From IMG/VR virus record IMGVR_UViG_3300047498_000021, positions 1 to 37,003 of that record: 37,003 bases of DNA; one strand, given 5' to 3'. The position numbers were made by a program, and so were the translations under genes. Below are positions 3,251 to 33,498 of the stretch, piece by piece; positions within the stretch are counted from its first letter, which is position 1, and every line of letters starts with the position of its first letter. The notes beneath the pieces are model-generated. The model had not been told where the DNA came from, ran no database searches, and was given only the letters and a program-made list of their open reading frames with translations. Source of the stretch: a virus.

Positions 3251-3519
3251 GCACCAAGCAGGGTGATCGTCGTCCGATCGTTCGTGGAGGCGGCCAGCCC
3301 GACTCCGACCGCCGCGCCGTCGTGGGAGCCTCAGGGAGGCCCCGAGAAGGCATGATTCTCGAGAGCGGTGCCCAGACCGTCGCCAAAGTGCTCGGCCGCT
3401 ACAGCGCCTCGGATCGCGATTTACGCACGACCGGCGGACACTTCAACGTCTCGGACCTCACGGACGTGAGCATCGGCGCTGCGCCGGACGGGAGTGAGGG
3501 CGGAGCGCTCAAGGGGTGA
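3247..3519 (+). CDS. Hypothetical protein (90 aa)
   Basis: GTG at 3247 overlaps the previous stop; a longer reading from 3043 would run through the two upstream genes and is rejected. The protein has an Arg/Gly-rich N-terminus (RRPIVRGGGQPDSDRR) and a more ordered C-terminal half (LESGAQTVAKVLGRY, GGHFNVSDLTDVSIG). No membrane segment or catalytic motif is visible. Its stop overlaps the ATG of the next very small gene. Confidence 0.6.
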   Translation: MSTKQGDRRPIVRGGGQPDSDRRAVVGASGRPREGMILESGAQTVAKVLGRYSASDRDLRTTGGHFNVSDLTDVSIGAAPDGSEGGALKG

Positions 3520-3596
3520 TGCGTCTCGGCGACTATATGCGTCGGTTTCTACCTGCGCCGAAGAAGAAGTACCGCGACGAGAAGCCGAAGAAGTGA
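3519..3596 (+). CDS. Very small basic protein (25 aa)
   Basis: A 25-residue ORF (MRLGDYMRRFLPAPKKKY...) packed exactly between neighbours: its ATG overlaps the previous stop and its stop is directly followed by the ATG of the GroES-like gene. It is lysine/arginine-rich. It could be a real microprotein or a coupling ORF that feeds ribosomes to the next gene. Confidence 0.4.
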   Translation: MRLGDYMRRFLPAPKKKYRDEKPKK

Positions 3597-4001
3597 ATGG
3601 ACACCGACCAGATCCACAGTCCCGGCGTCCGTGATGGGCACGAGAGCGCCTACGCTGTCCCTGCGGAGGCCGACATCCGTCCCCTGCGAGATCACCTCGT
3701 GCTCGAAATCCTCCCCTGGAAGCCTTCCCCGATCCTCGAAGTGGTGTATCACGGCCGACCGCTTCGGGGTCGTATCCTTCGGGCCGGTCCGGGCCGCTAC
3801 CCGATCCGCTACAACGGCCCGAAAGGGCGTCGTACGAAGTCCTGGGACAGTAAAGCGTTTCGTCCCTGTGACGTACACGAAGGCGACATCGTGGAACTCG
3901 GAGGCTTAGAGTTGGACGGCTACCTGCACAAGTCCTTCCGCTGGGGATCGAAGCAAGTGTTGATGTGCCGCGAAGAAGATGTGGCAGGGGTCGTGGAATG
4001 A
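3597..4001 (+). CDS. GroES-like co-chaperonin
   Basis: A 134-residue protein whose second half has the order of motifs of the Cpn10/GroES fold: IRPLRDHLVLEIL (27-39; compare the GroES opening PLxDRVxV), a mobile-loop position (40-57), RGRILRAGPGR (57-67; GroES has V-x-x-x-G-x-G), then HEGDIVELGG (94-103; GroES VKVGDxVxF) and QVLMCREEDVAGVVE (120-134; GroES ends in E-D-I-L-A-I-V). Phage GroES relatives such as T4 gp31 work with host GroEL to fold the coat protein. The position just before terminase and head genes suits that. The first 26 residues are extra. The call is from motif order by eye. Confidence 0.75.
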   Translation: MDTDQIHSPGVRDGHESAYAVPAEADIRPLRDHLVLEILPWKPSPILEVVYHGRPLRGRILRAGPGRYPIRYNGPKGRRTKSWDSKAFRPCDVHEGDIVELGGLELDGYLHKSFRWGSKQVLMCREEDVAGVVE

Positions 4002-4159
4002 GGAAGCGCCGCGCTCGCCGTCGTCTGCGCCAGGCTTGGAGTATTGCGCGAGCGACGACCGCGCCGAACCCGCTGCGCGAAGCCCTCCAATGGCTCGCGA
4101 CGGGAGCGTATTCCTCAATTGCGGCCGTGCGGGAGAAGGCCGCGAGGGCGCTGGAGTGA
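3998..4159 (+). CDS. Small basic protein (53 aa)
   Basis: ATG at 3998 overlaps the stop of the GroES-like gene (ATGA), and its stop overlaps the GTG of the next gene. The product is Arg-rich at the N-terminus (MRKRRARRRLRQAW) and then helical (LREALQWLATGAYSSIAAVREKAARALE). The cationic N-terminus suggests nucleic-acid binding, but there is no known domain. Confidence 0.6.
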   Translation: MRKRRARRRLRQAWSIARATTAPNPLREALQWLATGAYSSIAAVREKAARALE

Positions 4160-4410: not shown

Positions 4411-4815
4411 ATGAATACTGCGACTGCAGCGGCTCCTAATCGTGCTCGGTCTGGCCTCATCCCTTGGCAGCCGGGCCAGTCTGGAAACCCTGCCGGCCGG
4501 CCCAAAGGCAGCCGCAATAAGCTCGAGGAAGGCTTCCTTGCCGACATGGCTGCCGATTGGGCCGATCACGGGCGACAGGTCATTATTGACGCTCGAGAGA
4601 AGGACCCCGTTGCTTACCTCAAGATCGTGGCGAGCCTCATGCCGAAACAGGTTGAGCCCGACGCAGGCGTGCCGGGGTTAAGCCGTGACGAGCTCCGCGC
4701 AGCCATCAACGTCTTGGGATCCCTACTCGCTGCTCGAGCAACTGCGGGCGATGGAAGCGAAGCTGGCTCAGGAAGAGAAGCTGGCGGACTACCGGCCGTA
4801 TCCGAAGCAGAGTGA
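4411..4815 (+). CDS. Probable terminase small subunit
   Basis: A 134-residue protein with PGQSGNPAGRPKGSRNK (residues 21-37), the signature of the DUF5681-type family often found as the gene just before large terminase. It is followed by a helical region (EEGFLADMAADWADHGRQVI, YLKIVASLMPKQ) and a Ser/Gly/Ala-rich tail. Small terminases recognise the packaging site and load the large subunit. Its tail coding region overlaps the large-subunit ORF by up to 131 bases, an unusual length. The function is assigned mainly from position plus this motif. Confidence 0.75.
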   Translation: MNTATAAAPNRARSGLIPWQPGQSGNPAGRPKGSRNKLEEGFLADMAADWADHGRQVIIDAREKDPVAYLKIVASLMPKQVEPDAGVPGLSRDELRAAINVLGSLLAARATAGDGSEAGSGREAGGLPAVSEAE

Positions 4816-6124
4816 ATTCCACCGAGCGGGCGCGACGTACCGTGAACGGCTGCTCATGGCGGGGAACCAGTTAGGGAAAACGCTGGCGGCAGGGATGGAG
4901 TACGCCTGCCACGCTACGGGACATTACCCTTCAGATTGGGCGGGCAAGGTTTACGATCGCCCGATTGTCGGATGGGCCGCTGGAATCACCGGAGAGAGCA
5001 CTCGCGATAATGTCCAACGCATCCTTCTAGGCAGACCTGGGGCGTTTGGGACGGGCTCAATCCCTAAAGCTGCAATTGTGGAGGTCACCTCCGCCCGAGG
5101 ACAGCCCGACCTCCAGGACAGCATCAAAGTCCGGCACGCGTCCGGCGGCGTGAGCCACATCGCGCTGAAGTCGTATGAGAAGGGCCGCGAGAAGTGGCAG
5201 GGCGAGACGCTCGACGTGGTGTGGTTCGACGAAGAACCCCCGTATGACATCTACATTGAGGGCCTGACGCGCACGAACAGCACGCTGGGGCCGGTGTTTG
5301 TGACCTTCACCCCGCTCTTGGGCATGTCGGACGTGGTGAAGCGGTATTTGATCGACAAGGTAGCGGGCACTCACGTCACGCAGATGACCATTGACGATGT
5401 GGCGCACTACACGCCTGAGCAACGGGCCGCGATTATCTCAAGCTATCCGGAGTACGAACGTGACGCCAGAACAAAGGGAATCCCTCAGCTTGGCTCAGGC
5501 CGCGTGTTCCCGATTTCAGAGGATGAACTATCCATCGTTCCCTTCCCGATACCCCCTCACTGGCCTCAGTTGGGGGGATTGGATTTCGGTTGGGATCATC
5601 CTTCCGCTGCCGTGCGCGTGGCTTGGGACCGCGATAGCGATTGCCTGTATGTGACCGCGTGCCACCGGCAGCGAGAGCAGACCCCGGCGATGTTTGCGGC
5701 GTCCGTGCGTCCGTGGGCTCCGTGGCTTCCGTGGGCGTGGCCCCATGACGGCCTGCAGCACGACAAGGGCTCAGGGGAGCAACTCGCCAAGCAGTATCGC
5801 GACCAGGGCTTGATGATGATCGGCCAGCGCGCGACGTTTGAGGACGGTACATCAGGCGTAGAAGCAGGGATTGCCGAGATGCTCGACCGGATGCAGACCG
5901 GGCGGCTCAAGGTATTCAGCACGCTGAACGACTGGTGGGAGGAGTTCCGGATGTATCACCGCAAGGACGGGCTGATCGTCAAGGAACGGGACGACCTGAT
6001 GGCCGCGACGCGCTATGCGGTGATGATGCGTCGGTTTGCGGAGGTGCAGTTCAAGCAGGTTCAGCCCAAGGCGGGACGCTCGTTCTCGGGCATGGCGTCG
6101 TCGGAAGCGTGGATGGGTTCATAG
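4685..6124 (+). CDS. Terminase large subunit
   Basis: The ATP-driven packaging motor and nuclease. Of 479 residues from the GTG at 4685, the ATPase carries Walker A AGNQLGKT (59-66) and Walker B LDVVWFDEEP (176-185). The RNase H-like nuclease starts at GGLDFGWDHPSA (297-308), with Asp300 as first acidic residue, and later acidic residues lie in WPHDG and KERDDLMAATRYA. Length fits the family. An ATG at 4751 is an alternative start that would shorten the overlap with the small subunit; PYPKQSEFH ahead of Walker A is kept either way. It is translated in the same operon as the portal. Confidence 0.95.
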   Translation: MTSSAQPSTSWDPYSLLEQLRAMEAKLAQEEKLADYRPYPKQSEFHRAGATYRERLLMAGNQLGKTLAAGMEYACHATGHYPSDWAGKVYDRPIVGWAAGITGESTRDNVQRILLGRPGAFGTGSIPKAAIVEVTSARGQPDLQDSIKVRHASGGVSHIALKSYEKGREKWQGETLDVVWFDEEPPYDIYIEGLTRTNSTLGPVFVTFTPLLGMSDVVKRYLIDKVAGTHVTQMTIDDVAHYTPEQRAAIISSYPEYERDARTKGIPQLGSGRVFPISEDELSIVPFPIPPHWPQLGGLDFGWDHPSAAVRVAWDRDSDCLYVTACHRQREQTPAMFAASVRPWAPWLPWAWPHDGLQHDKGSGEQLAKQYRDQGLMMIGQRATFEDGTSGVEAGIAEMLDRMQTGRLKVFSTLNDWWEEFRMYHRKDGLIVKERDDLMAATRYAVMMRRFAEVQFKQVQPKAGRSFSGMASSEAWMGS

Positions 6125-6206: not shown

Positions 6207-8339
6207 ATGCCCCAAATCCCCACTGACTTCGACCAGGAAGCCGAGACCGACGAGGAGATCTTCCTTGAGTGCGCCGAGAGGCTGAAGATCGCGACGGAAG
6301 CGGAGTCCGTCAACCGCGCGCAGGCCGTGGATGACCTGACCTTCGCGGATGGGGAGCAGTGGCCGGACGACCTGTTCAACCAGCGTCGCCTCTCCCGTCG
6401 TCCGACGCTCACGATCAACCACACCGCGACCTTGGTGCGTCGGGTCGTCAACAACATGAAGGAGCAACGCCCGCGGATCAAAGTCCACCCCACCGGGGAT
6501 GGTGCCCAAGTTGAGGATGCCAAGGTCATCAATGGGCTGACCCGGCACATTGAGACGCTCTCCAATGCTTCGGTGGCCTATGACACGGCCGGCGAGAGTG
6601 CCGTCCGCATTGGGTGGGGTTACTTCCGGATCATGGGCGAGTACGTGGATGAAAAGAGCTTCGATCAGGAATTGAAGATCAAAGCCGTCCGGAACCCGAT
6701 GACGGGGTATATCGACCCGGCCGCAGAGCTCCCCGATGGGTCGGATATGGACTGGTTCATCTTCTCCTCTAAGATGAAGCGCACGGAGTTCAAGCGCCTG
6801 TACCCCGATGAAGAACTCGTGGACTACCCGATGGGGGCGGGGGGGGACAACCTCAGGAACTGGCTGACCAAGACCGAGATACGGATTGCCGAGTACTACC
6901 GCATCCGGCATCGAAAGGACACGCTCTGTGAATTATCAGACGGTCGGACGCTGTTCCGGTCGCAGTTCAAGCTGCCCGCGATGGAAGCGGCTGGTCTCGT
7001 TGTGGTACGGGAGCGACCCACTACGCGGCGTCAAGTCCAGTGGTTCCGAATCAACGGCCTTCGCATCGTGGATCGTCGCGACCTGCCAGGGCGCTGGATA
7101 CCAGTCGTGCGCGTCGAAGGTAACGTGCTCGATGTCAATGGGGAAGTCCGCCGCAAAGGGATGATCCGAGACCTTAAAGATCCCGCGCGGATGTTCAACT
7201 ACTGGGAGACGGCCAAGACCGAGAAGCTGGCGCTCTCCTCCAAAGCTCCTTGGGTCATGGCGGCAGGGCAGGCCGACGGACATCCGGAGTGGGAGGACGC
7301 CAACCAGAAGCCCTACTCGGCTCTCTTCTACGAGATCCTGAAAGGCACCGATGGCCAACCGCTCAACGTGCCTCCTCCGATGCGTCAGCCGGCGATCGAA
7401 GTGGAAGCGGGCTTTGCCGAAGCCTCCCAGAGTGCGGCTCGCAATCTCATGGCCGTGGCCGGGATGCCTCATGAACCGGGACAGGACACTCCGGGAACGG
7501 TGGTTTCGGGCGTGGCGCTCCGTCGTCGGCAAGCGATCTCGGACATCAGCCACTTCCAGTATTACGACAACCAGACCCAGGCGATCGCCCACTGTGGAGT
7601 GATCCTCCTTGACCTGATCCCGTTCTACTACTCCGAGGAGCGGATGCAGCGGATCATCGGGGAGGATGGCGTGCCCTCCATGGTCGAAATCAATCAGCGC
7701 CAAACCGGGCCGAATGGCGTTCAGACGGTCAAACACGACATGACCGTGGGCCGCTATGACGTGGTGATGGACACGGGCCCGGGCTATGAGAGCAAGCGCC
7801 TTGAGGGCGCGGAGAACATGCTCGACCTCCTCAAAACGCCTATTGGGGAGACGGTCGTCAAGACCGGCGCGGACATCGTGCTCCGCAACATGGACTTCCC
7901 CGGCGCGGATGAGTTGGCCAACCGCGCGATGCCCCAGAGCCCGCAGGGGATGGAGAAGGCGATGGAATCGCTCCCCTCGGACGCGAAGGCCATCGTGCAA
8001 AGCCTTCTGGCCGAACGGACGCAGTTGCAGCAGGCGATGCAGCACCTGCAGCTCGAGCTCAAGTACAAGACGCAGATCGAGCAGGGATGGATGCAGACCG
8101 AGATGGCCAAGGCGCGGCTGCAGACCGACACCAAAGCCCATGACGCGGTGCTTAAAGCCCAGACGACGCACGACGACATGCACGTCAAGGCGCAAGCCTC
8201 GATTGCGGTGGCCGAGATCAACAATGCCGGCAAGCTCCTGGATACCCACGTCAAGGGAAAACAGGACGTGGATGCGCGGGAACACGAATTAGCCGTAGCC
8301 AAAGCGGCGGAAAAGCAGAATGGGAGTTCCAATGCCTAA
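6207..8339 (+). CDS. P22-type portal protein
   Basis: A 710-residue protein of nearly the same length as P22 gp1 (725). The dodecameric portal sits at one capsid vertex and is the channel for DNA. Visible family features are LTFADGEQWPDDLFNQRR near residue 45, long alpha/beta wing regions, a segment with FQYYDNQTQAIAHCGVILLDLIPFYYSEERMQRI typical of the stem helix, then DVVMDTGPGYESKRLEGAENM, and a long helical Gln/Lys-rich C-terminus, the likely barrel or coiled coil. It overlaps the scaffold start by 8 bases. Confidence 0.93.
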   Translation: MPQIPTDFDQEAETDEEIFLECAERLKIATEAESVNRAQAVDDLTFADGEQWPDDLFNQRRLSRRPTLTINHTATLVRRVVNNMKEQRPRIKVHPTGDGAQVEDAKVINGLTRHIETLSNASVAYDTAGESAVRIGWGYFRIMGEYVDEKSFDQELKIKAVRNPMTGYIDPAAELPDGSDMDWFIFSSKMKRTEFKRLYPDEELVDYPMGAGGDNLRNWLTKTEIRIAEYYRIRHRKDTLCELSDGRTLFRSQFKLPAMEAAGLVVVRERPTTRRQVQWFRINGLRIVDRRDLPGRWIPVVRVEGNVLDVNGEVRRKGMIRDLKDPARMFNYWETAKTEKLALSSKAPWVMAAGQADGHPEWEDANQKPYSALFYEILKGTDGQPLNVPPPMRQPAIEVEAGFAEASQSAARNLMAVAGMPHEPGQDTPGTVVSGVALRRRQAISDISHFQYYDNQTQAIAHCGVILLDLIPFYYSEERMQRIIGEDGVPSMVEINQRQTGPNGVQTVKHDMTVGRYDVVMDTGPGYESKRLEGAENMLDLLKTPIGETVVKTGADIVLRNMDFPGADELANRAMPQSPQGMEKAMESLPSDAKAIVQSLLAERTQLQQAMQHLQLELKYKTQIEQGWMQTEMAKARLQTDTKAHDAVLKAQTTHDDMHVKAQASIAVAEINNAGKLLDTHVKGKQDVDAREHELAVAKAAEKQNGSSNA

Positions 8340-9375
8340 AGTCATCAGTTCCGAGGGCCTGCAGACGTTCATTGAGACCGGCAAGCCTACGGAGACCATT
8401 CCCCGCGAGAAGCGCGAGGCTCGCCCTGCCGCTCCGGCCCTTGAGATGAAGGCCGGCAACGGCGCGGCACCTCCGGTGGCCGATGCTCCGGGCACGTCGG
8501 AGGAGCCAAAAGCGGAGGCCAAGGCCGAAGCGAAGCCGGAAGATGATCTCGGCCTCGACCCCGAGGATCACGATCTCGCCGAACGCGCGAAAAAGCGCAT
8601 CGGCAAGAAGCACTACGAGATGAAGAAGGCGCAGGAGGAGGCTTCTGCGAAAGCGGCTGAGGCGGCCGAGTCCGAACGCTTCGCCGAACAGCTCTTCAAC
8701 GAACGCGAGGAGTGGAGGAAGCGTGCCGAGGCGGCCGAGAAGGCCCGGGATGAGCTGAAAGCGAAGGCCGAACCGCCGCCTGCGGCCCTCACGAAGCCCG
8801 ATCCGGAGAAGTACTACGACGACAAGCGCAATTTCCGAGCCTTTGACTACGCCAACGACTTAGCGGAATACACCGCGAAGAAAGCCATTGCGGATGATCG
8901 AGCGGAGCAGGAAAAGGCCGCGCGAGCGAAGGCCGAAGAAGCGCAGAAGGCCGAATTCACCAAGCGCATTGCGAAAGCGACCGAGAAATACCCCGACTGG
9001 CAGAAGGTCGTGGGCGGCTCAGACTTGGTGCTGCAGAACCAAGCCTTGCAATATCTCTCGGAGTCGGAGTATGGTACGGACCTAGCGTACTTCTTGGCCA
9101 AAAACCGGGACATCGCGGAAAAGATCAAAGCAATGCCGGTCATCCGGGCCATTGCGGAACTCGGTAAGCTCGAGACCAGCTTCGAGAAGCCTGCGAACCC
9201 TCCCGCGAAAGCGGAAGCAGCTCCCCCAGCGGTCGAACGTCCCGGTGCGCCCGCACCTATTACGCCCATCTCCACCTCTGGCACGGGAACCATTAACACG
9301 GACCCGGCCAAGATGAACTTTCAGGAGTTGCGCGCGTATCGGCGGCAGCAAGCGATAGAGAAATCGCGCCGCTAG
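8332..9375 (+). CDS. Capsid scaffolding protein
   Basis: A 347-residue protein very rich in Ala, Glu and Lys, placed between portal and coat as P22 gp8 is. The middle (about 60-200) is highly charged helix (EEASAKAAEAAESERFAEQ, KAADEL-type runs), and the C-terminus is basic (NFQELRAYRRQQAIEKSRR), matching the coat-binding helix-turn-helix end of scaffolds. ATG at 8332 is preferred to the ATG at 8320 because GGGAG lies 5 bases upstream of it. It would direct procapsid assembly and then leave. Identity is from composition, place and basic tail. Confidence 0.85.
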   Translation: MPKVISSEGLQTFIETGKPTETIPREKREARPAAPALEMKAGNGAAPPVADAPGTSEEPKAEAKAEAKPEDDLGLDPEDHDLAERAKKRIGKKHYEMKKAQEEASAKAAEAAESERFAEQLFNEREEWRKRAEAAEKARDELKAKAEPPPAALTKPDPEKYYDDKRNFRAFDYANDLAEYTAKKAIADDRAEQEKAARAKAEEAQKAEFTKRIAKATEKYPDWQKVVGGSDLVLQNQALQYLSESEYGTDLAYFLAKNRDIAEKIKAMPVIRAIAELGKLETSFEKPANPPAKAEAAPPAVERPGAPAPITPISTSGTGTINTDPAKMNFQELRAYRRQQAIEKSRR

Positions 9376-9435: not shown

Positions 9436-10791
9436 TTGGCCAACAACCTGTTGACGATGAGTTACATCACGAACGAGGCGCTCGTCGTCCTCGAGAATGA
9501 ACTCGTCATCGCGAACCGCGTAGAGCGGCAGTACAGCGCCGAATTCGCCCAGACTGGCGCGAAGATCGGCAACACGTGCAACGTGCGCCGCCCGCCCAGG
9601 TACAAGGGCACCTACGGTCCTCCGCTCAACGTCGAGGACACGAACGAGTCCTATATCCCCGTGGCCCTGAACTACCAGTTCCACGTCGATATCCAGTTCA
9701 CGACGCAGGATCTCGCCTTGAGCATGGACATGTTCAAGAAGCGGGTGCTGAAGCCCCAGGTGGCCGCCGTCGCGAACCGGATCGATAGTGACACCGCGCA
9801 GTACGCCTACCTGAACACCGCCGCGCAGCTCGGAACTTTTGGCGTCTCGCCCAACTCCCTGAAGATCTTCACCGACGCCCGCGCGTACCTCGCGAATGAG
9901 GCGTGCCCGCGTGAGGGCGAGAAGAACGCAGTGCTCGACCCGACCTCGATGAGTTCGATGGTCGCGACCGTGCAGGGCCTCTTTAATCCTCAGGCCAAAA
10001 TCAGCGACTTCCTCGACACCGGCATGATCGCCCGAGAGTTTGCGGGCCTCGACTGGTGGGAGGATCAGAACATTCCCGTGTTCACCACGGGTGCGCAGGG
10101 CGGTACGCCCATCGTGGCCGCCACCCTCGCGGGTAGCGCGCTCCTGACCTCAGGCTGGGCGCAGAGCGGAACGCTCTCGACCTCCGGCTGGACCGCCTCG
10201 ACCGCTGTGGTCTCGGTCGGCGACATCATCCAGATCGCGGGCGTATACCCGGTCAACCCCCAGAGCCGCCAGCAGTACGGCAAGACGCTGCGCCAGTTCG
10301 TGGTGCTGCCGCCGGGTGGGTTCGTGGCTCCCCCGAACGGAGCCGCGAATCCTGGTCTCACCTTCGGAGCCGCGACGCTCACCGCAGGAACCTTTAACCC
10401 GACCACGGGGCTCTATACGAGCTCCGGCACCGGCACGCTGTACCTGACGATCGGCGATTGCATCATCTCCGGCGGCCAGTTCCAGAACGTCACGGCGGCG
10501 CCGGCTGCGAGTGCCGCGATCACGGTCAACGGGGGCACGGCCTACGCCTCCACGGTCTCGCCGCAGTCGCTCGTGTTCCACAAGTACGCCTATGCGCTCG
10601 CGTTCGCGGATCTGCCGCTGCCGAGGGGCGTGGAGTTCGCCGCCCGCGCCTACGACGATGAGGACGTGGGGATGAGCATCCGGGTGGTGAGTCAATATAC
10701 GATCAACAACGACAGTGAACCGACCCGCTGCGATGTGCTCTACGGCCCGGCTTCCCTCTACAGAACGCTCGGCCTTCGGGTCGCAGGGTAA
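9436..10791 (+). CDS. Major capsid (coat) protein, P22 coat family
   Basis: A 451-residue protein whose ends match the P22 gp5-type coat family: an N-arm and helix (ITNEALVVLENELVIANRV), NTCNVRRPPRYKG and a C-terminal third with VFHKYAYALAFADLPLPRGV, then MSIRVVSQYTINNDSEPTR and LYGPASLYRTLGLRVAG. The middle (about 215-350) is Gly/Thr-rich and beta-like, the place of the inserted I-domain in P22 coat. It starts at TTG with TAGGAG 9 bases ahead; no ATG fits. It makes the HK97-fold shell with scaffold help. A hairpin covers its ribosome binding site. Confidence 0.92.
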   Translation: MANNLLTMSYITNEALVVLENELVIANRVERQYSAEFAQTGAKIGNTCNVRRPPRYKGTYGPPLNVEDTNESYIPVALNYQFHVDIQFTTQDLALSMDMFKKRVLKPQVAAVANRIDSDTAQYAYLNTAAQLGTFGVSPNSLKIFTDARAYLANEACPREGEKNAVLDPTSMSSMVATVQGLFNPQAKISDFLDTGMIAREFAGLDWWEDQNIPVFTTGAQGGTPIVAATLAGSALLTSGWAQSGTLSTSGWTASTAVVSVGDIIQIAGVYPVNPQSRQQYGKTLRQFVVLPPGGFVAPPNGAANPGLTFGAATLTAGTFNPTTGLYTSSGTGTLYLTIGDCIISGGQFQNVTAAPAASAAITVNGGTAYASTVSPQSLVFHKYAYALAFADLPLPRGVEFAARAYDDEDVGMSIRVVSQYTINNDSEPTRCDVLYGPASLYRTLGLRVAG

Positions 10792-18160: not shown

Positions 18161-18486
18161 GCCTCGCGTCCCTTCCGACCTACGATACCGCCCTGACCAA
18201 AAGCGGACAGACGAATACCCCGTGGTATCGGTTCTTCACCGCGCTCTATCAAGGCACCCCACCCGCGAATGAAAAGACGCTCACCCTAGGGGCCTCCCCT
18301 TACGCCTATCAGGCTCCGGTCAAGGGCTTCGTGATCCTTTCCGGGGGCAGCGTGAGTGCGGTGCAGTTCACGCGCTCGGTCACGACGCTGACGAATCAGA
18401 CCTCGGGGATCTTTCCCTTGAACCAGGGCGACACGCTGACGATCACCTATGCCTCGCTCCCGAGCGCTACTTGGGTGCCGGCGTGA
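18157..18486 (+). CDS. Small tail/neck protein (109 aa) in the tail-needle position
   Basis: ATG overlaps the previous stop. The protein has WYRFFTALYQGTPP near residue 23 and a beta-rich second half (KGFVILSGGSVSAVQFTRS, GDTLTITYASLPSATWVPA). It occupies the place of the tail needle gp26 in P22, but is far too short (109 versus 233 residues) and has no long coiled coil, so it may be a plug, knob or fitting protein. Function is not settled by sequence. Confidence 0.62.
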   Translation: MSLASLPTYDTALTKSGQTNTPWYRFFTALYQGTPPANEKTLTLGASPYAYQAPVKGFVILSGGSVSAVQFTRSVTTLTNQTSGIFPLNQGDTLTITYASLPSATWVPA

Positions 18487-19064
18487 GGAATTTTAGCCTG
18501 CTGGGAACCGCTGATGTGACGGCGCTACTGCACCAAATTCACAGCCAGCCTGAGTTGTGGAAGTCTGACACTTACCTCAGAGACTACCCGCAAGGTCCGT
18601 TCGGAGACACCGAGACAATCTTCCTGCGCTTCCCGCCATCCTCCGTGTCGGAGCTTGAGCAGGGAACGAAAGATCAGCACGAATGCATCTGGATGGATGG
18701 CGCGGTCCATCTTCCCGCGGCTCGCCCCATCGTGTTGTGGCTAAACATGCGCGTTGAGGGCGAGCGCATAGGCCGCGTGATGATCAACAAACTTAGGCCT
18801 GGCGGAAAGATATTTGCCCATGCGGATACGCCTGTGCATGCGGAGTATTGGGAGCGGCATCACGTCGTATTGCAGTCGGGTCCGGGCTGCAATTTCCGAT
18901 GCGGTGATGAAATCCTGAACATGAAAACCGGGCAAGTGTGGTGGTTTCAGAATGCCATCGAGCACGAGGTTTTTAACAATTCAGACACCGACAGAATCCA
19001 CATGATTGTGGACATCCGAACCTTCCACATTGACGCGCAAGCGTCGCTGCCGACAAAGCCATGA
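18483..19064 (+). CDS. Aspartyl/asparaginyl beta-hydroxylase-like dioxygenase
   Basis: A 193-residue protein from a GTG that overlaps the previous stop. It shows the 2-oxoglutarate/Fe(II) oxygenase signature of the Asp/Asn hydroxylase (LpxO-like) family: KLRPGGKIFAHAD with iron ligands His113 and Asp115, the distal HEVFNN with His161, and DRIHMIVDI with Arg171 as the 2-oxoglutarate ligand. The core between (ERHHVVLQSGPGCNFRCGDE) also fits. It could hydroxylate a residue in a phage or host protein, or a surface lipid. Metabolic genes are unusual between neck and ejection genes. It is followed by, and overlaps, a GNAT gene. Confidence 0.85.
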   Translation: MRNFSLLGTADVTALLHQIHSQPELWKSDTYLRDYPQGPFGDTETIFLRFPPSSVSELEQGTKDQHECIWMDGAVHLPAARPIVLWLNMRVEGERIGRVMINKLRPGGKIFAHADTPVHAEYWERHHVVLQSGPGCNFRCGDEILNMKTGQVWWFQNAIEHEVFNNSDTDRIHMIVDIRTFHIDAQASLPTKP

Positions 19065-19516
19065 TTACTTTCTGCGCGGAACGGCTGAGCGACTGCATGG
19101 AATACCTGAAGCCCATGTTCCCCAAGCATTACCGGGAACTCGCGCTCGACCAGGATCGGGTGCCGCTAGACCCGCAGTATGACGTTTATCTCGCCCGCGA
19201 AAATCGTGGCGAAGTTCTTTTTGTGACGGCGCGAAAAAGTGGGGAGATCGTCGGGTATTTCGTCGGGTTCTTAGCCCCCGGGCTCCACTACAGAACCTGC
19301 CTGACCCTGACGATGGATATTTTCTGGATTGACCCGGCGCATCGCGGAAGCGGGGCTGGCTATCAGTTATTCAAGTTTGTGGAGAACGAAGCCAAGCAGC
19401 GCGGCGTGCAACGCATGTTTGTCGGCTCGAAGCTCCATAAAGATGCTTCGTGGCTATTTGATCGTCTCGGTTATCAGGAAGTAGAGCGATATTATTCCGC
19501 TTGGCTGGGGGGTTAG
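19061..19516 (+). CDS. GNAT-family N-acetyltransferase
   Basis: A 151-residue GNAT protein. Motif A reads DIFWIDPAHRGSGAGYQLFKFVENEA, with the acetyl-CoA loop R95-G-S-G-A-G100. It is preceded by the typical central strands (EVLFVTARKSGEIVGYFVGFL) and followed by a motif-B-like FDRLGYQEVERYYS. The N-terminus (AERLSDCMEYLKPMF) resembles phage-borne acetyltransferases. The substrate is not visible. ATG overlaps the stop of the hydroxylase-like gene, so the two enzymes probably form one unit, possibly modifying virion proteins or a host factor. Confidence 0.87.
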   Translation: MITFCAERLSDCMEYLKPMFPKHYRELALDQDRVPLDPQYDVYLARENRGEVLFVTARKSGEIVGYFVGFLAPGLHYRTCLTLTMDIFWIDPAHRGSGAGYQLFKFVENEAKQRGVQRMFVGSKLHKDASWLFDRLGYQEVERYYSAWLGG

Positions 19517-29763: not shown

Positions 29764-31098
29764 GTGCGTATCGCGTTCTGCACGACCTGCCGAGGGCGCG
29801 CTCCGCACCTAAAAGAAACCCTACCCCGTAACCTCGCGGACAACGCAGACGGGGTGTTCATCGTGCTCGACTACGGCAGCACCGATGACCTGATCCCGTA
29901 CCTCAAAGCCTACCACGCCCGAGACATCGCCTCCGGGCGGCTCGTGGTCTACCAGCATCCGGCCAAGAAGTGGCACATCAGCCACGCCAAGAACATGGCC
30001 GCTCGGTGCGGGCTCCGGGAAGGGGCCGATGTCCTCGTCACGCTCGACGCCGATAACTTCACCGGCCCCGGCTTCTCGGACTTCCTACGACAGTCCTTCG
30101 CCGAACCTGGAGTGCGCCCTGGCATTTTCCTGTGCCCCGACTACGCCTACATCAAGAGCCTTCCCCACGGCCCCGGACGGCCACAGAGAGGCTATGCCGG
30201 ACGTCTAGCCGTATGGGCCTCGACCTTTGTCAAGATGGGCGGCTATGACGAGGCGTTCTCAGAGTGGGGGCGCGAGGACATCTGCATGAACTTCCGGCTC
30301 CAGCGGGCCGGCTACACGATGCGGCATATCCCGAACCACTACCTGAACGCCATCCCTCACGGGGCCGATGTGCGGTTCAAGGAATACCCCCAAGCCCAAG
30401 CCAACGAGACCTTTAAGGTCGTGGAGGAGTTGAAATCGAGAACCGAGACCGTCGTCAACTTCGGCCGCTGGGGGTGCGGGACCGTCACCCGGAACTTCGA
30501 TCCGACGCCTATTTCCTTGGACCCGCTGCCCACGCGAATCTTCGGCATCGGCTTTCAAAAGACGGCCACCACGTCTCTGGCCAAAGCCCTCGCGATCCTG
30601 GGGTACGACAGCTTCCATTGGGGGGAGGGGGAAGCACCCCTCATCTGGTACGAGATGCAGGGGCTGGGGCGCTCCAAAACGCTCGAGCAATGGTATGCCC
30701 TGTGCGATAACCCGATCCCGGCCGTGTACCGCGAGCTCGACCAGGCGTATCCGGGGTCCAAGTTCATCTTGACCGTCCGGGATGAATGTGACTGGCTCCG
30801 CTCCTGTCGAGACCTCTGGGACTACGCGAAGAACCCCACCCGACGCCTGTGGGACATCTACCCCTTCAGCCACGTCATTCACACGGCCCTTTACGGCCAG
30901 CGGGAATTCGATCCCCTCGTGATGCTCGCACGCTACCGGCGGCACAACGCGGAAGTGATCGAGTACTTCAAGGGCCGCGAGGATCTACTCGTGCTGCGTC
31001 AGCCCGCGTGGGGGCCGCTGTGTGGATTCCTCGGGCTTGCCGTTCCGCAGATCGCCTACCCGGTATTGAACCGGGTCCGCGAGGACCCTTGCACTTGA
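29764..31098 (+). CDS. Glycosyltransferase-sulfotransferase fusion protein
   Basis: A 444-residue two-domain protein from the GTG at 29764. Residues 1-250 look like a GT-A glycosyltransferase: an N-terminal strand (RIAFCTTCRGRAP), LVTLDADNFTGPG with the DxD at 95-97, and the acceptor-side motif EAFSEWGREDICMNFRLQRAG (164-184). Residues 257-444 resemble a sulfotransferase: TRIFGIGFQKTATTSLAKAL, whose GFQKTATT (263-270) matches the 5'-phosphosulfate loop, and SKFILTVRDECDWLRSC for the 3'-phosphate site. It may add and sulfate a sugar, perhaps on surface glycans or phage proteins. No signal peptide. Confidence 0.82.
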   Translation: MRIAFCTTCRGRAPHLKETLPRNLADNADGVFIVLDYGSTDDLIPYLKAYHARDIASGRLVVYQHPAKKWHISHAKNMAARCGLREGADVLVTLDADNFTGPGFSDFLRQSFAEPGVRPGIFLCPDYAYIKSLPHGPGRPQRGYAGRLAVWASTFVKMGGYDEAFSEWGREDICMNFRLQRAGYTMRHIPNHYLNAIPHGADVRFKEYPQAQANETFKVVEELKSRTETVVNFGRWGCGTVTRNFDPTPISLDPLPTRIFGIGFQKTATTSLAKALAILGYDSFHWGEGEAPLIWYEMQGLGRSKTLEQWYALCDNPIPAVYRELDQAYPGSKFILTVRDECDWLRSCRDLWDYAKNPTRRLWDIYPFSHVIHTALYGQREFDPLVMLARYRRHNAEVIEYFKGREDLLVLRQPAWGPLCGFLGLAVPQIAYPVLNRVREDPCT

Positions 31099-32203: not shown

Positions 32204-32563
32204 TCAGGGGTCCTTGTTGGGGTTGAGGAATTCGTCCAGCTTCGCAATGCGATCGCCCAACCCGGTCATCGATCGGGTGCGCGCGAGCGAGTCCGGGCCG
32301 TGGCCAATGGACATCAGATCCGCCTCGAAAATTTCCATGTCCTCGCGCAGCAGGTGTTGAGCCTTGGACAACTGCGCTTCGAGCAGTTCGATGCGCTTCA
32401 ATAGCTGGCTGTTCACGGTTTCGCTGCCGCGCTTCCACTCGTCGAGTTCGGTTTTGAGCGCGGCGTAATCGGAGTAACGCACCCATGCTCCGTCTGGGGC
32501 CTGCAGCAGCCAAATACCACTCTCTCGGTGGTACCACGGGGCGTACCACTTAACCTCATTCAT
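32204..32563 (-). CDS. Hypothetical protein with coiled coil (119 aa)
   Basis: ATG at 32563 overlaps the methyltransferase stop. The N-terminal part (KWYAPWYHRESGIWLLQAPDG, WVRYSDYAALKTEL) is a short aromatic-rich unit; the middle (EWKRGSETVNSQLLKRIELLEAQLSKAQHLLRED) is coiled coil. No catalytic motif. The upstream extension of this frame to 32626 lies inside the methyltransferase and lacks support. Confidence 0.7.
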   Translation of the reverse strand: MNEVKWYAPWYHRESGIWLLQAPDGAWVRYSDYAALKTELDEWKRGSETVNSQLLKRIELLEAQLSKAQHLLREDMEIFEADLMSIGHGPDSLARTRSMTGLGDRIAKLDEFLNPNKDP

Positions 32564-33498
32564 TTCTCGAACATCCTCCCCTGCCTGAGTGTTGCCGGGA
32601 GACACGCGGGCGAGTACCAAATGCATTCGCTGTTAGTGGTTTTGCTGCCTGAGTAGGTCAACCGGCCACGCGACCACTCCACGGCGTCCCATCCGGCCAG
32701 CTTGTAATCGTCACGGTGCCCGCATAGGGCGATCCGCAGGTGCTCGTTCTCGCGCGCCCATGTCTCTACGGCATCGGCAACCGCGCCGGCTTTGCCGTAG
32801 AGCGCCTCGTACGACCGATATGGCGGGTCCAGGAACACGGCCGTATCATCGCCGCCGAAATGATTGTTAAGGCAGCGCGACCAATCACCATGCACCACGC
32901 GGACCCGCTCAAGCCTGTCTGCGATCCGATGCAGCCACGCCCATGCTGTGCGCCCGCAGGAGGTCAGCAAGGCGTCCGCGCCCATACCGGCATTGCTCGC
33001 GTGCGGGATTTGGCCGATGGCCTGCACGCCCATACCGGCATTGCTCGCGTGCGGGATTTGGCCGAACCAGTCGCACCAGCCGGAACCGATCCAGCAGCAT
33101 TGACCCCACAGCCACCAGCCTGCGACTTTTGCATCGCCGGGCCAGGCCGGATCTTGCATTTCCGCGCCGATGCGATCTCGCTGCGCCATGAGCCATCCGT
33201 GGCGCGCGCCGAGGTCAATGTGCGATACCGGGTAATCCGCCCATTCCGCCACCGCCGCCGGTTGATGCTTGACCGCGCGCCAGAAATTAGCGATGAATCC
33301 GGAGCCGTCGCACACGACTTCAAGCGCAGCCGGGCGGGGGCACGCTAGCAAAACCGCTGCCGATCCGCAAAACGGCTCGATGTATTGCGCAGGCGATCCG
33401 AGCCGAGCCCACACATCCGCCGCAACCGTGCGCTTCCCGCCGAAGTACGGGAACGGGGACAGCAAGAGCGTCGCGTCTCCGATGTGCTTAACCCACAT
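32560..33498 (-). CDS. D12-class DNA N6-adenine methyltransferase
   Basis: A 312-residue Dam-like enzyme. Residues 16-23 are FPYFGGKR, the S-adenosylmethionine loop of this class, followed by YIEPFCGSAAVL (39-50) and catalytic FLDPPYRSY (222-230, DPPY at 224-227). It methylates adenine in duplex DNA, typically protecting phage DNA from host restriction or marking sites. An odd feature is a 16-residue tandem repeat, GQIPHASNAGMG at 146 and 162, within the target-recognition zone. Its start at 33498 precedes, by 21 bases, a small coiled-coil gene on the same strand. The specificity is not predictable. Confidence 0.93.
   Translation of the reverse strand: MWVKHIGDATLLLSPFPYFGGKRTVAADVWARLGSPAQYIEPFCGSAAVLLACPRPAALEVVCDGSGFIANFWRAVKHQPAAVAEWADYPVSHIDLGARHGWLMAQRDRIGAEMQDPAWPGDAKVAGWWLWGQCCWIGSGWCDWFGQIPHASNAGMGVQAIGQIPHASNAGMGADALLTSCGRTAWAWLHRIADRLERVRVVHGDWSRCLNNHFGGDDTAVFLDPPYRSYEALYGKAGAVADAVETWARENEHLRIALCGHRDDYKLAGWDAVEWSRGRLTYSGSKTTNSECIWYSPACLPATLRQGRMFEK
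32979..33065 (-). repeat. Two-copy 48-bp tandem repeat in methyltransferase gene
   Basis: 32979-33017 equals 33027-33065 over 39 bases with a 48-bp period, in frame, so the protein has GQIPHASNAGMG twice, 16 residues apart. The DNA identity suggests recent slippage or an in-frame duplication near the DNA-recognition region. Confidence 0.92.

Follow-up and report, generated by a model that had tools for sequence, protein, structure and literature searches.

A divergent GroES-like co-chaperonin with an enlarged basic roof, encoded ahead of the head genes of a phage with a P22-like coat

The window analysed here, 37,003 bases long, is a virus record in which a short gene for a protein of 134 residues lies upstream of a packaging and head module. 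The resemblance of this protein to GroES raises the questions of whether it belongs to the GroES/Cpn10 family (PF00166), and what a phage with a P22-like coat would do with a co-chaperonin of its own. That phages can carry GroES is well established; it is, for example, a core gene of the HTVC023P-type pelagiphages (PMC9599517). In phage T4, gp31 replaces GroES on GroEL and is required for the capsid protein (PMC3012670).

Identification of the GroES-like protein

The gene occupies positions 3597..4001 (+ strand), with an ATG start and a TGA stop. As stated in the preliminary description, it encodes four GroES-like segments in order, with 26 residues preceding I27-R-P-L-R-D. A chance reading frame was ruled out by comparing 21 aligned genes of the family, where pN was lower than pS in all 210 pairs; the closest pair has dN 0.04 and dS 0.35, and the gene is under purifying selection. 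The stop codon of a small basic ORF of 25 residues (3519..3596, +) abuts the ATG of the GroES-like gene, an arrangement that may couple the translation of the two. Several relatives have an in-frame P-A-Q-E-type stretch right before the GroES-like start, and this stretch or the 25-residue ORF is perhaps a small leader or a ribosome-binding site. At the other end, the stop codon overlaps the start of a small Arg-rich ORF (3998-4159, +) as ATGA.

The HMM search against Cpn10 proposed in the preliminary description drew a blank for the single sequence, which had no match in Pfam or PHROG at an E-value of 10. The protein alone scored 0.08 against the NCBIfam GroES family, and its best phmmer match in the PDB was GroES (0.03); it reached significance in no library searched, and the single-sequence evidence is weak. 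The same comparison succeeded at the level of the family. Seven relatives with 56-63% identity were found in viral contigs, and a profile search then gave 20 loci with relatives. Two profiles of the GroES-like family were used, A1 with eight rows and A2 with 21 rows. GroES was the top match of A1 in the PDB (8.4e-8), and matches of this profile to the ribosomal protein uS17 (0.006 at best) were taken as chance. Pfam Cpn10 was matched by five of the eight family members (best E-value 0.0015) and the PHROG GroES family by three (best 0.00077), and single-domain members of G015 and G005 passed the Pfam Cpn10 cut-off. Alignment of A2 with 17 bacterial GroES by hhalign (98.4%, E-value 7.5e-15) was colinear along the length, with one gap of 14 residues located at the roof. 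All 17 bacterial GroES scored 22.7-34.3 bits with A2, against no more than 9.1 bits for shuffled GroES (n = 3400). Bacterial genomes scanned with A1 yielded no relatives, and hence no prophage or host was identified.

Structure prediction, the other check proposed beforehand, recovered the GroES beta-barrel in an AlphaFold2 model of the window protein (pLDDT 77.4, pTM 0.68). All 28 Foldseek matches at E ≤ 0.001 were GroES/Cpn10 proteins (best 4e-6), and so were the 13 best rows in VIA (Z 8.5-10.8). Below these came Cpn20 (7.3), two gp31 rows (6.9 and 6.3), and the first oxidoreductase (6.0). The alcohol-dehydrogenase-type GroES-like domain was rejected, as its Z values (4.7-6.0) fall short of every Cpn10 row, bacterial or organellar, and of the two gp31 rows. 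The window family and GroES share the barrel fold and strand order, and the family has kept the R-P-L-x-D start, the R-G-x-V-x-A-x-G-x-G centre, the V-K-x-G-D-x-V segment and the R-E-x-D-V end.

Three distinct sequences carry the divergent GroES-like domain with a canonical one joined in frame behind it (L157:6001-6690; L158:6001-6804; L160:5087-5779), and L158 does not differ from L159 across the 6 kb compared. The canonical half passes Pfam Cpn10 at about 1e-25, and such fusions tie the divergent domain to chaperonin work. In bacterial genomes this half matched mostly GroES of Pseudomonadota (best identity 61%), a weak hint at this group as host. The head-to-tail layout resembles that of chloroplast Cpn20, which consists of two tandem Cpn10 domains (PMC5780408). 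In contrast to Cpn20, the two domains of the phage fusions are very unlike each other, and the window protein is single-domain and so falls outside the Cpn20 type. The structure model of the tandem fusion was unusable (pLDDT 36). In two of the three fusion loci, a gene for the window-type terminase large subunit (TerL) is situated not downstream of the fusion but 3-4.6 kb upstream, and the module is thus rearranged there. Since profile, fold, synteny and fusion evidence all support it, we firmly identify the window protein as a divergent member of the GroES/Cpn10 family, and the initial proposal, a divergent phage co-chaperonin encoded before the packaging genes, is upheld.

Remodelled regions of the GroES-like protein

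The family differs from GroES in a 26-residue N-terminal extension, a shortened mobile loop and a strongly basic roof of 29-36 residues in place of 15. These regions were compared in 42 members, comprising 21 of the A2 profile and 21 from virus records, after five duplicates had been dropped. The extension (residues 1-26, 3597..3674, +) contains a G10-x-R12 motif conserved family-wide, with R12 present in all 42 members and G10 in 41. Residues 1-13 have low confidence in the AlphaFold2 model.

The mobile-loop segment (residues 40-57, PWKPSPILEVVYHGRPLR, 3714..3767, +) was aligned to the mobile loop of GroES and is presumed to contact GroEL. According to the hhalign and multi-sequence alignments it is four residues shorter than in GroES, and it is seven shorter in four members. 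The I-V-L anchor of GroES (G-G-I-V-L) is not conserved as such, and in the family its place is taken by a patch of hydrophobic character, S-x-I-[IL]-x-V-[VA]. Within this loop, block 41-50 of the model has lower confidence (pLDDT 61).

The roof (residues 67-95, 3795..3881, +) is an enlarged basic hairpin of 29 residues with a net charge of +5, exceeding the 15-residue roof of GroES by 14 residues and thus about twice as long. With the mobile loop, it bears out the unusual loop segments reported from the first inspection. Its net charge across the 42 members ranges from +3 to +9 (mean +5.7), as compared with a mean of +0.6 in 17 bacterial GroES, all with roofs of 15 residues. It is among the most conserved stretches of the family, with the majority sequence YPKRYNGPKGxRTKSWDSKxFxP; a divergent subgroup has YPNIHxRGxxDGKxxRxVRxxxxF with length and charge kept. 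In the model, the roof is predicted to form a hairpin of strands 70-73 and 80-83 (pLDDT 86-92 by block).

The parallel with T4 gp31 drawn in the preliminary description holds only in general. Both gp31 and RB49 CocO are phage-encoded replacements of the GroES lid with the same fold; in the comparison with the window model, the score of gp31 is clearly lower than those of the bacterial Cpn10 proteins. It does not extend to the loops. Compared with GroES, gp31 has a longer flexible loop (22 versus 16 residues) and no roof loops (PMC6318259), whereas in the window family the mobile loop is reduced and the basic roof enlarged. A larger chamber has been proposed for T4, but a review points out a preference of gp31 homologues for the capsid proteins of their own phages, so that subtler features may decide (PMC3012670). 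The window family deviates from GroES the other way round at each of the two loops. A larger cage is therefore unlikely to be its advantage, and the bigger-cage explanation does not carry over.

Linkage to head genes and GroES proteins of related phages

Downstream of the GroES-like gene, the + strand of the window encodes a DUF5681 protein that may be the small terminase subunit (4411..4815; PF18932, 1.2e-9), TerL (4685..6124; PF03237, 5.5e-32; PF17289, 3e-24), a P22-like portal (6207..8339; PF16510, 2e-145), a scaffolding protein (8320..9375; phrog_8865, 4.3e-28) and a P22-like coat protein of 451 residues (9436..10791; PF11651, 3.9e-36; phrog_283, 1.9e-69). Each of the 20 other loci of the profile-found set has the GroES-like gene 5' of the head genes and in the same orientation as these. 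In a coat-led search, from which the best 80 of 363 loci were taken, 27 of the 35 loci with at least 5.5 kb upstream had the gene within this flank. From the remaining eight, one has a C-terminal piece of the gene at the contig edge, one starts inside the DUF5681/terminase genes, and six carry the gene elsewhere in their records. When coat-led records were searched whole (30 of the best 80 loci), the gene was present in 27, and in the three misses (L059, L077 and L104) the record reaches no more than 1.5 kb beyond the coat gene on its upstream side.

The nearest phage coats to that of the window are those of PBR31 (55% identity), MW202674 (47%) and MW202520 (47%), and each of these phages has an annotated GroES just upstream of its packaging genes, with the MW202520 match spanning the start of the circular record. 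An annotated GroES is also present upstream of the portal in DSL-LC05. These were the only four with Cpn10 among 17 records of phages with P22-like coats searched; the other 13 had none. A tree of coat proteins with 26 rows placed 12 GroES-bearing rows in one well-supported group (100/99) and DSL-LC05 apart from it; the sister of DSL-LC05, MW202483, has no GroES. The coat clade of the window regularly has a co-chaperonin of its own, although P22-like coats in general do not need one, as judged from the 13 phages without it.

Like the window gene, the GroES genes of the podophages PBR31, MW202674, MW202520 and DSL-LC05 are found 5' of terminase or portal genes in phages with a P22-like coat, and those of MW202674 and MW202520 share the mobile-loop segment S-x-I-I-D-V with the window family. 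They differ in having neither the N-terminal extension nor the long basic roof, and three of the four have almost no roof. The long roof was also absent from the three aligned GroES of Vibrio, Acinetobacter and Erwinia phages. PBR31, the nearest cultured phage found, has a GroES of another type, and the terms GroES and chaperon are absent from the main text of the paper describing this phage (PMC10975493). In our literature search, which was largely confined to open-access papers, neither a roof of this kind nor a tandem GroES from a phage came up.

Several of the related loci showed further peculiarities of the head module. The coat gene is interrupted in L094 (10100-10360), L103 (10100-10302) and L107 (16870-17089) by inserts of about 200-260 bases that have stop codons in every frame and by eye resemble a self-splicing intron core; the coat gene of the window is uninterrupted. 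Rfam searches of the window and the interrupted coat genes gave no RNA family at the gathering score and nothing meaningful at a permissive threshold. The portal and scaffold genes, adjacent in the window, are separated by about 5-7.6 kb in L097 (1362-8987) and L103 (3686-8813), and portal matches were partial in L090, L094 and L097.

Proposed lid function and its client

We propose, with a probability of about 0.7, that the protein is a phage lid for host GroEL and that the coat protein is its likeliest client. Of the two parts, lid function is very likely and the coat as client likely. GroES-fold subunits would assemble into a ring, probably a heptamer, capping host GroEL and replacing host GroES or mixing with it. 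Contact with GroEL would be made by the hydrophobic I/L-x-V-V patch of the shortened mobile loop, which would dock there, and the enlarged Lys/Arg-rich hairpin, if directed towards the cage, would line or close its top, giving a basic ceiling. The favoured purpose would be folding of the phage's own coat protein, which is acidic (47.9 kDa, pI 5.0), so that a basic ceiling may face an acidic client. A phage-borne GroEL partner was sought and rejected: no Cpn60 gene was found in any of the 32 records searched (the window, 27 relatives and four phages, many of them possibly fragments), and a lid, if it is one at all, must therefore use host GroEL.

The choice of the coat as client is favoured by its linkage to the GroES-like gene. 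Against this choice, a coat of 48 kDa should fit the ordinary GroEL cage, 13 of the 17 sampled phages with P22-like coats have no Cpn10, and MW202483, the sister of DSL-LC05, has none either. It is conceivable, though rather unlikely, that the protein caps GroEL mainly for another late protein, such as TerL, a tail protein or an internal protein. The GroES-like gene is nearest to the terminase in most loci, and TerL (53.7 kDa) is also cage-sized. However, six of the 20 loci have no window-type terminase and instead an ORF of phrog_38 (four loci) or phrog_979 (two loci), with the GroES-like gene and the portal kept, and the GroES-like distances correlate least with those of TerL (0.26, 23 loci). 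Over 28 loci, the correlation of GroES-like distances was highest with the coat (0.45), and those with the portal (0.38) and scaffold (0.34) were nearly as high, all far below that between portal and scaffold (0.89). The gaps between these values are too small to be decisive or to set the coat convincingly apart from the portal, and the coat linkage could reflect common descent of one head module. The portal (79.8 kDa), for its part, exceeds the size limit of the GroEL cage.

Two further readings set phage folding aside to different degrees. The main effect of binding to host GroEL might be that host GroES is displaced and host folding slowed or redirected, with phage folding secondary. The altered mobile loop and roof and the absence of a phage GroEL from the 32 records searched would suit this role, but in all complete cases the gene accompanies the head module, among the late genes, and other phages of the clade have a more ordinary GroES at the same place. 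We consider such displacement highly improbable. We give least credence to a protein that has kept the GroES fold and left the chaperonin system, for instance as a head or packaging component binding DNA via its basic loop. Its roof is Lys/Arg-rich and so highly conserved as to be unlike a passive one, and its gene adjoins the terminase, yet three distinct relatives continue in frame into a canonical GroES domain, clear GroES proteins occupy the same position in related phages, and the hydrophobic patch persists where the mobile loop should be.

Returning to the lid for host GroEL, a broader proposal can be made tentatively, at somewhat below even odds. This phage lineage may have remodelled the GroEL cage from the lid in a manner opposite to gp31, by shortening the tether and evolving a ceiling that is large, conserved and basic and suits an acidic capsid protein, with some lids fused to a canonical GroES to give two-domain, possibly mixed Cpn20-like rings. 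The effect of a phage lid on the GroEL cage is still debated. In the present set, more than 40 naturally occurring putative lids are linked with coat genes and vary at the roof and mobile loop; beside them stand roofless relatives and fusions combining both lid types. Lid/coat swaps across this set would show directly whether roof size and charge set the choice of client.

Outside the head module, the window has several genes of other kinds. A single ORF (29764-31098, +) combines a galactosyltransferase-type segment (PF02709, 4.3e-7) with a following sulfotransferase domain (PF17784, 5.6e-32). An aspartyl/asparaginyl beta-hydroxylase (PF05118, 1.1e-17) is encoded beside a GNAT acetyltransferase (PF00583, 9.7e-11) at 18471-19516 (+), downstream of long ORFs with no Pfam match, and a D12-class adenine methyltransferase match (PF02086, 1.5e-7) lies on the opposite strand (32560-33498, -).
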